Positions 11,979 to 52,578 of a DNA stretch of 64,000 nt are shown here, piece after piece. How positions within the stretch are numbered: position 1 is the first letter of the stretch; every line of letters begins with the position of its first letter. Source of the stretch: Variovorax sp. KK3 (GTDB taxonomy: Bacteria; Pseudomonadota; Gammaproteobacteria; Burkholderiales; Burkholderiaceae_C). Below the pieces are notes generated by a model. The model had not been told where the DNA came from, ran no database searches, and saw only the letters and a list, made by a program, of their open reading frames with translations. The stretch spans positions 1 to 64,000 of the forward strand of contig NZ_LYVO01000021.1 in assembly GCF_001984055.1 (NCBI RefSeq), written 5' to 3'. The position numbers and the translations under genes were made by a program.

Positions 11979-12455
11979 TCACGCGTCTTCGGCGCTCGAA
12001 CTCACCGCCTGCTTTTCCGCCTGGCCGGACGCGAGGCACAGGCCCTGCAACTGCTGCACGTGCGACCGGAACGCGACGGCGTCCACCCACCGCCCCACGT
12101 CGACGCTGCCGACCTCCGGGTCGTTCACTGCGGGGCTCAGCGCCACGAGGTAGCGGCCCGTCAAAGGGCTGACGTCGAAGCGGACCTGCACCGACTGCAG
12201 CGCGATCTGCCACACGGGATGCCCGGAACCCTGGCCGGACCAGATCCGAAGATCGCAGGGCCCTTGCAGCGTTGCGCGGCGCTTCAGGCCATCGTCGGCG
12301 CCCGCCATGGTGCGGTCGAGCGCACGCAGGTGATCGGCAGCGCTCATCGACGTGACGCTGGGCACGTCCTCGGCGGTGTAGCCCTCGCAGCCGAGACTGC
12401 CGAATGCCAACAGGAGTGTGGCCGACAGGAGTTTCGCGTCACGTCGCCGCGGCAT
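11979..12455 (-). CDS. Putative lipoprotein of unknown function
   Basis: I do not recognise this 158-residue protein. The N-terminus [20 protein letters not shown] ends in a lipobox-like SLGC with Cys at about 23, so it is probably lipid-anchored in the cell envelope. The mature part is mixed alpha/beta in appearance. It has two further Cys, in PCDLRIW and GLCLAS, which could form a disulfide, and a [18 protein letters not shown] strand pair. The C-terminus is polar. It stands alone on the minus strand between chrA and the terC-type gene, divergent from the latter. Base composition matches the neighbours. Confidence 0.6.
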
Positions 12456-12610
12456 CAGGATGGCTTGAAAAGGTGGACCACTGCCGCATTCTCGCGATGC
12501 AGGTCGGCGCCGCCGCCTAACCAGGATGGCGCGTGTTGGCATTGTCTTGACCGCAGATGGCGGCTTGTAGACTCGCCCGCATGGACTCTTCCTCAGGGCC
12601 TCCCAGTACC

Positions 12611-12661
12611 AGGCTGGCCGCTCCGGCCAGCCTCGCCCCTCTCGCTTTCCTCGCTTCTTCC
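12611..12661 (+). promoter_or_regulatory. Leader hairpin plus polypyrimidine tract ahead of the terC-type gene
   Basis: A perfect ten-base stem, AGGCTGGCCG (12611-12620) and CGGCCAGCCT (12624-12633), has a three-base CTC loop. It is followed by 28 bases that are almost all C or T (12634-12661). It lies in the 276-base leader of the TerC-CBS-CorC gene, which has no visible Shine-Dalgarno sequence of its own. TerC-family genes such as alx and ykoY are often under yybP-ykoY riboswitch control, but I cannot recognise that consensus here. A different leader-based control is possible; a chance hairpin in GC-rich DNA is the alternative. Confidence 0.4.
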
Positions 12662-12731
12662 ATCTCGCCCTGGTCCGCCGGCGCGCCTCCGACGGCGCCG
12701 CAGACTGCCCAGCCACCGCGCGAGACTCCGC

Positions 12732-14303
12732 ATGCTTGAACTGCTCACGGACCCGGCCGCATGGGTCGGCCTGGTCACGCTGGTCGTGCTCGAGATCGTG
12801 CTGGGCATCGACAACCTGATCTTCATCGCGATCCTGGCCGAGAAGCTGCCGCCGCACCAGCGCGACAAGGCTCGCGTGCTGGGGCTGAGCCTGGCGCTGA
12901 TCATGCGGCTGGGCCTGCTGACGGCCATCTCGTGGCTGGTGACACTGACCACGCCCCTCTTCAGCGTGGCGGGCTTCGACTTCTCGGGCCGCGACCTGAT
13001 CCTGCTGTTCGGTGGCCTGTTCCTGCTGTTCAAGGCGACGACGGAGCTGCACGAACGGCTCGAAGGCGTGACGCACACGGCATCGAAGTCGACGGTGTAC
13101 GCGAGCTTCTCGCTGGTGGTGGCGCAGATCGTTGTGCTGGACGCGGTGTTCTCGCTCGACGCCGTCATCACCGCGGTCGGCATGGTCGACGAGCTGCCGG
13201 TGATGATGGCTGCGGTCGTGATCTCGATCGTGGTGATGCTGGTGGCATCGAAGCCGCTGACGCGCTTCGTCAACGCGCACCCGACCGTTGTCATCCTGTG
13301 CCTGAGCTTTCTGCTCACGATCGGCCTGAGCCTGGTGGCGGAAGGCCTGGGCTTCCACCTGCCCAAGGGCTATCTCTACGCTGCGATCGGCTTCTCGATC
13401 GTGATCGAGTTCTTCAACCAGTGGAGCCGCCGCAATCTGGCCCGGCACGAGGCGCGCCGCCCCTTGCGCGAGCGCACGGCCCAATCGGTGCTGCGCATGC
13501 TGGGCAACAGGCATCCGCTCGCGGACGGCGACGCGCCCGCGGACCCGCTGGCACCGGCCGACGCACCGGCCTTCGCGACGGAGGAGCGCAACATGGTCAG
13601 CGGCGTGCTGAGCCTTGCGGAACGCAGCGCGCGCTCGATCATGACGCCGCGCGCCGACATCTCGTGGGTCGACCTCGAAGAGGCGCCCGACGCGATTCGC
13701 CAGCAGTTGCTGGCGACGCCTCACAGCATGTTCCCGGTGGGCCGCGGTTCGCTCGACGACATCGCCGGCGTGGCGCGGGCCAAGGACCTGCTGGCCGCGC
13801 TGACGCAGCATGGCCGCATCGACGAAGCACGCGACCTGCGCAGCGCGATCTACGTGCCGGAGTCGACCACGGTCATCAACCTGATCGACAAGCTGCGCCA
13901 CGCACGCGGCCAGCTCGCGCTGGTGAACGACGAGTACGGCACGCTGAAGGGCGTTGTCACGCCGATCGACGTGCTGGAAGCCATCGCCGGGGAATTCCCG
14001 GACGAGGACGAGCGGCTCGAGATCGAGGCCACGGGCGATGGGCAATGGCGCGTCGCCGGCTCGGCCGACCTGCACCAGCTGCAGCTGGCGCTGGGCACCC
14101 ATGGCCTGGTGAGCGAGGACGACAGCTACACGTCGATCGCGGGGTTCCTGCTCGACAAGTTCGGGCAGCTGCCCGCGCAGGGCGCGCGGCTGGAGCACGA
14201 CGGGCTCGAGTTCGAGGTGGCCGAGGCCGACGACCAGCGCATCCGGACGATCGTGGTGCGCCGGCTGCCGCAAACCGAGAGCGCGATGGAACTGGCTGCC
14301 TGA
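12732..14303 (+). CDS. TerC-family membrane protein with CBS pair and CorC_HlyC domain
   Basis: A 523-residue inner-membrane protein. The TerC domain covers about residues 1-240, with the family signature [20 protein letters not shown] near the N-terminus. A second acidic membrane motif, [17 protein letters not shown], comes later. A linker follows, then a CBS pair (about 300-425, with [14 protein letters not shown] and [15 protein letters not shown]). The CorC_HlyC domain comes last (430-515, [19 protein letters not shown]). This matches E. coli YoaE/YegH. Characterised TerC proteins export manganese or load metals onto exoenzymes, so divalent metal transport is likely. The upstream leader is structured. 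Confidence 0.88.
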
Positions 14304-33407: not shown

Positions 33408-33440
33408 AGTTCGCATTTGCAACCGCCGCCGGAACCGTCC

Positions 33441-35666
33441 ATGCCCGCCCTCCACAACCGCCTGCGCCCCGCCGCCGCCGCCACGCTCACCCTTCTCGCG
33501 TGGGCGGCCCACGCCCAGACGCAGCCGGCACCGGCCGAGCCCGCGGCACCCAGTTCCACCCTATCCACCGTGACCGTCGAGGCCAGTGCCGATGCCTCGG
33601 CCGAAGGCCTGACCAAGCCGTTCGCCGGCGGCCAAGTGGCGCGCGGCGGCCGCGTCGGCGTGCTGGGCAACCAGGACTACATGAGCTCGCCCTTCGGCGT
33701 GACCAGCTACACCAACGAGCTGATCCAGGACCAGCAGGCCCGCAGCGTCGGCGACGTGCTGCAGAACAACCCCTCGGTGCGCGTGGCGCGCGGCTTCGGC
33801 AACTTCCAGGAGTCGTACTTCATCCGCGGCTTCCTGCTGAATTCGGACAGCACCGCCTACAACGGGCTCTACAGTCTGTTGCCGCGCCAGTACATCTCGT
33901 CGGAGCTGTTCGAGCGCGTCGAAGTACTGCAGGGCGCCAGTGCCTTCCTGACCGGCGCCTCGCCGGGCGGTGACGCGATCGGCGGCTCGGTCAACCTGCT
34001 GCCCAAGCGCGCGGGCAGCGAGCCGCTCACCCAGTTCACGCTGGGCGGTTCGAGCGGCTCGCAGGTCTATGCCGCGACCGACATCGCACGCCGCTTCGGG
34101 CCCGACCAGAGCCTGGGCATCCGCATCAACGCGGCCCACCGCAACGGCGGCACCGGCGTCGACAACGAGAACGTCAAGCTCGACGTGGTGTCCGTCGGCT
34201 TCGACTGGCGCAGCCGCAACGCCCGCCTGTCGGCCGACATCGGCCACCAGGAGCACCGCCTGCGCGAAACGCGCACCAACGTCACGCTCGCATCGGGCGT
34301 CACGCTCGTGCCATCGGCGCCGGACGCCAAGACCAACTGGGCGCAACCCTGGAGCTATTCGAACGAGCGCGACACCTTTGGCACCGTGCGCGGCGAATAC
34401 GACTTCACCGACAACATCACCGGCTGGTTCGCGGGCGGCATGCGCCGCGGCGTGGAAGCCAACTCGCTGGCCAACCTCAGCGTGAGCAATGCGCTGACCG
34501 GCGCCGGCACCACCTACCGCTTCGACAACACGGGCATCGAGAAGGTGCAGACGGGCCAGGTCGGCCTGCGCGGCAAGTTCGCGACCGGGCCGGTCAAGCA
34601 CGAGCTCGTCGCCGCTTACGACTACTTCGAATCGGACCGCAAGAACGCCTACCGCTTCGACTTCCTCAACACGCAGAACACCAACCTCTACAACCCGATC
34701 CCGACGCCCTACCAGCCGCTGTTCAGCGCGTTCTCGCTCGGCGGCAACGACCTGACGTCGCCGCAGACGACCGCGAAGAAGCGCCTCACCAGCTACGTCA
34801 TCGGCGACACGATGTCCTTCCTGGACGACTCGCTGCTGCTCACGCTCGGCGCGCGCCGCCAGACGCTGAACGTCGACAGCTTCGCCTACAACACCGGCGT
34901 GCAGACCGGCAACTACGACCAAAGCCGCACCAGCCCGGCCGCAGGCATCGTCTTCAAGGCGACGAAGGAGTTCTCGGTGTACGCGAACTACATCGAGAGC
35001 CTGGCGATCGGCGAAACGGCGCCGGCCGTGGTCAACGGCCGTCCGGTGACCAACGCCGGCCAGGCGCTGTCGCCTTACGTCGCCAAGCAGAAGGAACTCG
35101 GCGTCAAGTACGACGGCGGCGGCATCGGCGCCACCGCGGCGCTGTTCTCCATCGAAAAGCCGCGCGCACTGCAGAACGCGTCGGGTGCCTATGTCTCGGA
35201 GGGCAAGGACCGCCACAACGGCCTGGAGCTGACCGCCTTCGGCGAGCCGGTGAAGGGCCTGCGCGTGCTGGGCGGCGTGACGCTGCTCGACGCCAAGCAG
35301 AAGGAAACCGGCAGCGCCACCACCGACGGCCGCCGCGTCATCGGCGTGCCCAAGCAGCAAGGCACCATCGGCGTGGAATGGGACGTGCCGGGTGTGCGCG
35401 GCCTGTCGCTCAACGCCCGCATGATCGCGAGCGGCTCCAGCTTCGCCGACGCCGCCAACACGCTGCGCGTGTCCGGCTGGACCCGATTCGACATCGGCGC
35501 GCGCTACATCACCGAGATGGCCGGCCGCCTGGTGACGCTGCGCGCCCGCATCGACAACGTGGCCAACCGCGACTACTGGGCATCCGTCGGCGGCTCGCCC
35601 GGCGCAGGCTACCTGGTGCTGGGCAATCCGCGCACCTTCAGCCTGACCGCCTCCGTCGACTTCTAG
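33441..35666 (+). CDS. TonB-dependent siderophore receptor
   Basis: An outer-membrane receptor of 741 residues. The signal peptide ends near AHAQ (residues 19-22). A TonB-box-like STLSTVTVEASAD follows. The plug domain (about 70-185) has DQQARSVGDVLQNNPSVRVA, ESYFIRGFLLNSD and ERVEVLQGASAFLTGASPGG, the pattern of siderophore receptors. The 22-strand barrel ends in the terminal Phe of FSLTASVDF. A TTG at 33405 would add 12 residues; the ATG is preferred. It is preceded by a Fur-box-like site, so iron-limited expression is likely. No siderophore biosynthesis or FecI/FecR genes adjoin it, so the ligand may be a foreign siderophore. Confidence 0.93.
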   Translation: MPALHNRLRPAAAATLTLLAWAAHAQTQPAPAEPAAPSSTLSTVTVEASADASAEGLTKPFAGGQVARGGRVGVLGNQDYMSSPFGVTSYTNELIQDQQARSVGDVLQNNPSVRVARGFGNFQESYFIRGFLLNSDSTAYNGLYSLLPRQYISSELFERVEVLQGASAFLTGASPGGDAIGGSVNLLPKRAGSEPLTQFTLGGSSGSQVYAATDIARRFGPDQSLGIRINAAHRNGGTGVDNENVKLDVVSVGFDWRSRNARLSADIGHQEHRLRETRTNVTLASGVTLVPSAPDAKTNWAQPWSYSNERDTFGTVRGEYDFTDNITGWFAGGMRRGVEANSLANLSVSNALTGAGTTYRFDNTGIEKVQTGQVGLRGKFATGPVKHELVAAYDYFESDRKNAYRFDFLNTQNTNLYNPIPTPYQPLFSAFSLGGNDLTSPQTTAKKRLTSYVIGDTMSFLDDSLLLTLGARRQTLNVDSFAYNTGVQTGNYDQSRTSPAAGIVFKATKEFSVYANYIESLAIGETAPAVVNGRPVTNAGQALSPYVAKQKELGVKYDGGGIGATAALFSIEKPRALQNASGAYVSEGKDRHNGLELTAFGEPVKGLRVLGGVTLLDAKQKETGSATTDGRRVIGVPKQQGTIGVEWDVPGVRGLSLNARMIASGSSFADAANTLRVSGWTRFDIGARYITEMAGRLVTLRARIDNVANRDYWASVGGSPGAGYLVLGNPRTFSLTASVDF

Positions 35667-52060: not shown

Positions 52061-52387
52061 CTACATCACGCGCTTGGGCGCATCGTGATAGTGCTTCTTG
52101 AGGCGTTCCTTGTGGCGCACGACCTGCCTGTCCAGCTTGTCGGCCAGGTCGTCGACGGCGGCGTAAAGATCAGCGTGGCTCGATTCGGCGAACATGTCAT
52201 TGCCCTTGACGCGGATGCTGCATTCGGCCTTCTGGCCTTCCTTTTCCTTCTGCTTTTCAACCGTGAGGATCACCTTCACATCGACCACCTGGTCGAAGTG
52301 CCGGATGATCCGGTCCAGCTTGCTCGTGACATAGCTGTGGAGCGCGGGAGTGACGTCGAGGTGATGACCGCTGATCGTCAAATTCAT
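52061..52387 (-). CDS. hpf: Ribosome hibernation promoting factor, short form
   Basis: A 108-residue protein of the YfiA/HPF family that binds the 30S subunit in stationary phase. It contains MNLTISGHHLDVTPALHSYV, KLDRIIRHFDQVVDVKVILT, CSIRVKGNDMFAESSHADLY and AAVDDLADKLDRQVVRHKER. The absence of a C-terminal extension marks the short HPF form used for 100S dimers with RMF in gammaproteobacteria. AGGAGG six bases ahead fixes the start. Upstream there is a 479-base region with a candidate promoter, but no rpoN, which is the usual neighbour. Confidence 0.95.
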   Translation of the reverse strand: MNLTISGHHLDVTPALHSYVTSKLDRIIRHFDQVVDVKVILTVEKQKEKEGQKAECSIRVKGNDMFAESSHADLYAAVDDLADKLDRQVVRHKERLKKHYHDAPKRVM

Positions 52388-52549
52388 GAATGACCTCCTG
52401 AGAAATGACGGTTGGGGAAAAAGACCCATGCATCGTGGAGAGGAAGCCGGGCCGGCGAAATCGACGGTGTGAAAAAACGAGAAAGAGGGGGAGAAAAGAA
52501 GGGGAAGGAAGAGGCGGAAGGGGCAGAGGCGGTGAGGCGCTGTCGGTTC

Positions 52550-52578
52550 ACTATGCCCATGCTGTCATCGAATTGCAA
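52550..52578 (-). promoter_or_regulatory. Candidate hpf promoter
   Basis: On the minus strand TTGCAA (52578-52573) and CATAGT (52555-52550) are 17 bases apart. Each matches the sigma-70 consensus at four of six positions. It would give a leader of about 155 bases that includes the pyrimidine tract. In related bacteria hpf is often read through from rpoN; here it must have its own promoter. Confidence 0.4.

Follow-up and report, generated by a model that had tools for sequence, protein, structure and literature searches.

A putative leaderless reading frame with an early Pro-Pro pair is probably coupled to the terC-type gene downstream in Variovorax and related bacteria

The terC-type gene at positions 12732–14303 of the window, by which we mean the whole stretch of 64,000 nt from Variovorax sp. 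KK3, is preceded by a small reading frame that runs into its start codon, and the question is whether ribosomes that read this frame govern the gene or whether the leader acts as a regulatory RNA. The yybP-ykoY Mn2+ riboswitch occurs before TerC-family genes, and the preliminary description of this locus had considered a structured leader of another type as well as translational coupling through the small frame. Its account of the layout can largely be read off the sequence (all features lie on the forward strand unless stated otherwise). A frame of 52 codons runs from ATG 12581 to TGA 12739 and overlaps the ATG of terC (12732) by eight bases; positions 12611–12620 pair with 12624–12633 in a 10-bp stem closed by the loop CTC; and there is no Shine-Dalgarno-like purine run upstream of terC in the window. 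Two points had to be adjusted. The tract described as 28 pyrimidines is pyrimidine-rich (25 in the best 28-mer) but not pure, the longest pure run being 9 nt, and the 276-base leader is the entire divergent intergenic gap, while the transcribed leader probably has about 151 nt, starting at or beside 12581, as judged by a -10 box. The upstream limit of the 276 bases is set by the start of a divergent ORF on the minus strand (11979–12455), whose N-terminus resembles that of a lipoprotein and for which Pfam gave no match.

The product of the gene contains the Pfam domains TerC, CBS and CorC_HlyC, an architecture that by sequence is of the MgpA/YoaE type; it matches the NCBIfam model 'R_switched_YkoY' below the cut-off of that model. 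Judged from sequence, its closest described relative is the Mg2+-efflux protein MgpA/YoaE, not the TerC controlled by the Mn riboswitch, and the product is a probable Mg2+ exporter. Induction of mgpA by high Mg2+ has been reported, and the discussion of the same paper calls the control of the MgpA/YoaE gene unclear (PMC12421838).

Full-length orthologs of terC were found in 25 of 101 Variovorax genomes, the window's own among them (E≤1e-120), and 22 of the 25 carry a common leader motif upstream of the gene. The motif was also present in Azoarcus (two loci), Pseudacidovorax (two), Xenophilus (one) and Pseudorhodoferax (one), 28 loci in total; L048, L049, L052 and L056 were excluded as repeats of genomes already counted, and L159 and L161 carry the element but sit outside the counts for the 28 loci. 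The three Variovorax orthologs that lack the motif (L044, L045 and L047) have, by eye, a TGA 13–16 nt before terC, and their upstream sequence resembles the end of a shared gene, on which the translation of terC may depend there instead.

The first constant part of the motif is the start of the reading frame and its distance from a promoter-like box. In the window, the -10-like box TAGACT (12568–12573) lies 7 nt before the start codon of the ORF, and a box of this kind (TAGACT, TAAACT or TAGAGT) lies 6–9 nt ahead of the in-frame start codon, ATG or GTG, at 27 of the 28 motif loci, compared with a background of two in 7420 upstream positions (chance 0.0011 per slot). Because the box is so close, transcription is expected to start at or beside the start codon of the ORF (ATG 12581 in the window), which probably makes the mRNA leaderless. 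TTGACC (12547–12552), 15 nt before the -10 box, is a possible but weak -35 element, with no conservation by eye in the relatives; a simple scan found no promoter near the window leader, the -10 box falling below its threshold. The exception to the spacing is L036, where the motif ORF lies further inside the leader. In that locus a TAAGCT box is found 8 nt before an ATG from which a different, 26-codon frame is read; the TGA of this frame and the GTG of the motif ORF overlap, and two leader ORFs are possibly chained.

Counted from the conserved start, which is GTG at 21 loci and ATG at seven, the upstream ORFs (uORFs) have 28–78 codons, and their N-termini mostly read M-x-S-S-S-E-P-P-S-(R/P)-x-L-A. 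The Pro-Pro pair is present at all 28 loci, the preceding Glu and the following Ser at 27 each; in the window (S-S-S-G-P-P-S, 12587–12607, with the Pro-Pro pair at 12599–12604) Gly takes the place of the conserved Glu. Codon conservation in the small frame, one of the checks named in the preliminary description, was analyzed by counting synonymous and non-synonymous changes on the terC tree of 27 loci (L078 left out). The SSSEPPS codons showed 20 synonymous to 21 non-synonymous changes (expected synonymous fraction 0.287; p 0.005) and the EPPS codons five to two (p 0.015), both subsets having been picked after viewing the alignment. The ratio is one to 19 in the three codons after EPPS and 23 to 48 over all 11 codons tested, where no synonymous excess is seen (p 0.375), and hence there is no peptide signal outside the motif. 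We regard these counts as moderate evidence for a conserved peptide. Silent positions within EPPS also evolve slowly (five silent changes over 27 loci), which leaves room for a constraint on the DNA or RNA.

The second constant part is the end of the frame. The uORF stops between -10 and +16 nt from the ATG of terC at 28 of 28 loci; in the window, the start codon of terC overlaps the stop in ATGCTTGA (12732–12739). Relative to terC, 20 uORFs are in phase 2, eight in phase 1 and none in phase 0, the phase that would join the uORF to TerC; likewise, 0 of the 21 distinct uORF–terC distances correspond to phase 0. Of the 20 phase-2 uORFs, 19 use the TGA of ATGA as their stop; the exception is L078, with its stop at +16. 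Among the phase-1 loci, for which this TGA is out of frame, seven of eight, the window included (ATGCTTGA), have an extra TGA within codons 2–4 of terC, compared with three of the 20 phase-2 loci (Fisher p 7e-4, with related rows counted as independent), and the eighth stops 10 nt upstream of terC. At the remaining 17 phase-2 loci, the phase-1 frame would extend 263–2579 nt past the start of terC. The phase differs even between sister loci on the terC tree (L033/L035 and L034/L037). The openness of the frame as such is weak evidence, another frame being free of stops in 25 of the 28 leaders.

The lack of a Shine-Dalgarno sequence before terC is also shared by most of these loci. A Shine-Dalgarno-like purine run precedes terC at three of the 28 motif loci versus 62 of 73 orthologs without the motif, and pairing of the 16S tail with the 17 nt from -20 to -4 before terC has a median of +1.35 kcal/mol versus -5.8 (p 5e-8), a difference that is a correlation because the two sets differ in phylogeny: the 73 controls are motif-less orthologs (L044, L045 and L047 among them) from a mixed range of mainly other lineages. 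Since terC has no Shine-Dalgarno sequence in the window, its translation would depend on ribosomes arriving from the uORF. Taken together, the stop position, the phase, the loss of the Shine-Dalgarno sequence and the -10 spacing provide comparative backing for the coupling through the 52-codon frame that had been put forward for this locus. From the comparison of sequences we infer a leaderless start, translation of the ORF and its coupling to terC, and we consider it likely that a leaderless uORF with a Pro-Pro pair is coupled through translation to the gene of a Mg2+ exporter here, as a variant of the kind represented by YoaL, the leader ORF of enteric yoaE.

The composition of the leader raises a further possibility, namely that attenuation of transcription is the main output: ribosomes on the uORF would shield a rut site, and Rho would terminate in the C-rich leader when they fail. 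We see this as tenable, if rather doubtful. The window leader contains a pyrimidine-rich, G-poor stretch (12634–12669) that is rut-like by composition; the 28 leaders have C/G ratios of 1.52–2.05 and 21–35 YC dinucleotides per 100 nt, compared with 1.00 (sd 0.14) and 14.5 (sd 3.0) in 280 control pieces of CDS; and only four of 5108 windows over both strands of the 64 kb, one of them the leader itself, reach both values of the window leader. The only other stretches equally C-rich, G-poor and YC-rich are 33426–33576 on the plus strand and 52375–52550 on the minus strand (151-nt windows, 25-nt steps). A precedent is the reported role of EF-P in maintaining transcription–translation coupling (PMC5021804), and by analogy Rho may take part in the control described here. 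However, the shortest leaders (L003, L036 and L046, 83–89 nt) give Rho little room for loading, C-richness could instead keep the leader unstructured, and the start without a Shine-Dalgarno sequence together with the overlapping stop argues for translational coupling in any case. A simple scan detected no intrinsic terminator near the window leader, an observation that is neutral regarding Rho.

We consider it improbable that the conserved 5' element functions as a site in the RNA or DNA (a protein-binding or sRNA-binding site or a small riboswitch), with the reading frame a by-product of high GC content, although several observations fit such a site. Twelve nucleotides, GAGCCTCCCAGT, vary little even at silent sites, and the synonymous excess does not extend over all 11 codons. 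The 10-bp hairpin of the window (12611–12633) is the local form, one codon longer than in the relatives, of a conserved hairpin 1, which in most of them reads GCTGGC-N4-GCCAGC and directly follows the EPPS codons. In alignment A1 (26 of the 28 rows; L036 and L078 left out) hairpin 1 is paired in 95.5% of cells. Its covariation is weak: the two Azoarcus loci provide the only compensated pair (C-G in place of U-A), a count attained by 115 of 500 shuffles, and the covariation score is attained by 19 of 500. In L034 and L037 the loop is one base shorter, so that the stem is kept and the frame behind it shifts. Local folding of 12581–12640 is stable compared with shuffled sequences (z -2.24; five of 200 at least as stable), but that of the leader as a whole, 12576–12760, is not (z 0.48; 141 of 200).

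Evidence of covariation is stronger for another hairpin, 11 bp long (CCCGacAUGGC-N4-GCCAUGcCGGG), which lies about 50–80 nt before terC in 16 of the 28 relatives (L002, L004, L007, L031–L035, L037, L038, L040–L043, L050 and L051) and whose pattern was not found in the window. Its score in alignment A2 is 0.158 compared with 0.090 (sd 0.016) in shuffles, none of 500 reaching it; A2 consists of 15 distinct rows from these 16 loci, chosen with a pattern that favours the hairpin (L040 by eye), so that pair counts lean towards it. Because L037 reads this 3' hairpin in another frame than L034, we conclude that it is retained as RNA, which fits an RNA site. An RNA or DNA site nevertheless leaves unexplained the distance from the start codon to the -10 box, the exchange of ATG and GTG, the absence of phase 0, the phase-matched stops and the loss of the Shine-Dalgarno sequence.

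Searches with known RNA families gave no match above chance in the window or in the leader of one relative either. At the gathering score, no Rfam family matched the whole window, and the window together with 20 loci yielded no metal riboswitch and no match in any terC leader; matches outside these leaders were cspA (L127), the ManX thermometer (L103) and C4 antisense RNA (L008). At E≤10, the window leader gave just two chance-level matches, and the leaders of Variovorax L034 and Pantoea L089 gave sub-threshold matches only, two of them to SECIS_4 in L034 (best E 0.28). The yybP-ykoY model (RF00080) matched neither the window nor, at E≤10, its leader or the leader of one relative, in agreement with the remark that this consensus is not visible here. 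Both features whose conservation had been taken as decisive in the preliminary description, the hairpin and the small frame, are conserved among the relatives, and the covariation sought there is weak in hairpin 1 and seen in the 3' hairpin of 16 of the 28 loci. The idea of a large structured RNA leader, or of a riboswitch for Mn or pH, was not borne out: the core that the relatives share comprises the start of an ORF that looks leaderless, a brief peptide motif and a stem of 6 bp.

In the genomes searched, all 25 confident copies of the 5' element stand at this gene. A covariance model of it (R1) detected 22 confident sites in the 101 Variovorax genomes, all of them before terC orthologs by their coordinates (21 at E≤1e-10 and one at 3e-8; the window's own site at 1.7e-11). 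Twenty-one of the 22 sites belonged to the alignment of the model and match by construction (the genome of L036 was not in it), and the useful result is thus that no other gene was found to carry the element; the next-best match (L151, E 5e-4), with no TerC gene in its vicinity, appears to be a chance hit. Among 399 genomes of the family, R1 found the window's own site and three sites of one other genus directly before TerC orthologs, with 73–77% identity and the same succession of box, start codon and PPS; at least one of these three (L160) duplicates the sequence of Xenophilus L060 within the stretch compared. Among 369 genomes of the class it found the window's own site and one weak match (L162) that is not at TerC; such searches lose weak copies, and the class search gave no Azoarcus-like site. 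The element is seldom found outside Variovorax and looks like a dedicated leader of terC, not like a regulon signal.

That the uORF encodes a functional small protein is very unlikely in spite of its conserved N-terminus, given a length that varies from 28 to 78 residues, a body that is not well conserved, a 3' part whose frame differs between sister loci and the lack of a family in Pfam for the window ORF and in NCBIfam for two such ORFs.

A similar arrangement is known from enteric bacteria. In E. coli K-12, yoaL has 52 codons and overlaps yoaE by 13 nt. All 24 enteric loci analyzed (E. coli and 23 others) have a frame of 39–72 codons that starts with MD(R/C)HR and ends between -1 and +13 of the gene start, and phase 0 relative to the gene was never seen. 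Changing the start codon of yoaL to a stop codon is reported to lower the translation of MgpA/YoaE (PMC12421838), and a positive effect of yoaL on YoaE has also been reported (PMC8708949). In both systems a gene of the same TerC-CBS-CorC type follows a leader that is filled by a small ORF ending at the gene start, and in both this ORF has a variable length, conserved first codons and a fixed stop position. The window uORF does not belong to the YoaL protein family (MDRHRR... start), and BLASTP at E≤100 gave no alignment between the two; YoaL, like two of the uORFs, matched no NCBIfam family. E. coli YoaL also lacks a Pro-Pro pair near its start, and therefore its control step cannot be the same as the one in Variovorax. 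Moreover, a GGAG-like run and short inverted repeats stand before the start of enteric YoaL, whereas the ORF in Variovorax is apparently leaderless; most starts of enteric yoaE likewise have a GGAG-like run, which Variovorax terC lacks (the enteric features as seen on inspection). By eye, small hairpins seem to surround the start of enteric YoaL (L089, L100, L115, L117, L105 and others; L128, 3732–3760), GGGC..GCCC before the ATG and CGUC-ACC-GACG within the first codons; the Pectobacterium version of the latter in L105, UGUC-ACC-GACA, looks compensatory.

The Salmonella leader ORFs MgtL and MgtQ are comparable in that short ORFs with early Pro or acidic codons stand before a Mg2+ transport gene; the behaviour of the ribosome on them is described as the sensor (PMC12421838 for MgtL, PMC8092293 for MgtQ). 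They differ in that they control uptake genes, whereas the Variovorax ORF is longer and terminates at the start of a gene of the efflux type, and MgtQ has 8 residues and acts by RNA refolding. The only MgtL-like feature of the Variovorax leader is the EPP motif, in which the window has Gly for Glu. We found no report of this beta-proteobacterial leader in searches of open-licence literature.

A coupled leaderless uORF, the reading we prefer, would operate as follows. Transcription would begin at or within about 1 nt of ATG 12581 and give a leaderless mRNA, and a ribosome would initiate on the 5' ATG (GTG in most relatives), read the whole leader and stop on the start codon of terC, whose translation would rely on such arriving ribosomes, either by termination-reinitiation or by local unfolding. 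What stays constant is the start, the early Pro-Pro codons, the adjoining small stem and the stop position, the remainder being a variable C-rich spacer. Control is likely exerted at the Pro-Pro step, beside the stem. The 10-bp form of the stem is separated from the Ser codon by 3 nt and its 6-bp core by 5 nt; by a simple geometric estimate, the stem would thus be close to the site where mRNA enters a ribosome located at Pro-Pro. If the ribosome paused or dropped off there, translation of terC would be lost and the bare C-rich leader could attract Rho; if it passed, the exporter would be made. Analogy with known leader ORFs suggests that this step might read the status of Mg2+ or EF-P. More tentatively, the ribosome could itself be the gauge of Mg2+ (or EF-P): an exporter gene without a Shine-Dalgarno sequence would be served only when elongation through Pro-Pro succeeds, hence its expression at high Mg2+, and enterobacteria and this group of Betaproteobacteria would have reached coupled leader ORFs separately, with unrelated sequences.

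In summary, proteins of the MgpA/YoaE type are newly recognised Mg2+-efflux factors, and a second, unrelated leader ORF at the same place suggests that coupled translation recurs for this gene. The system is compact and apparently leaderless, and with the Pro-Pro pair at every one of the 28 loci its sensing step would be directly testable. The combination of a free body with a fixed start and stop is also a signature by which leader ORFs missing from annotations could be detected.
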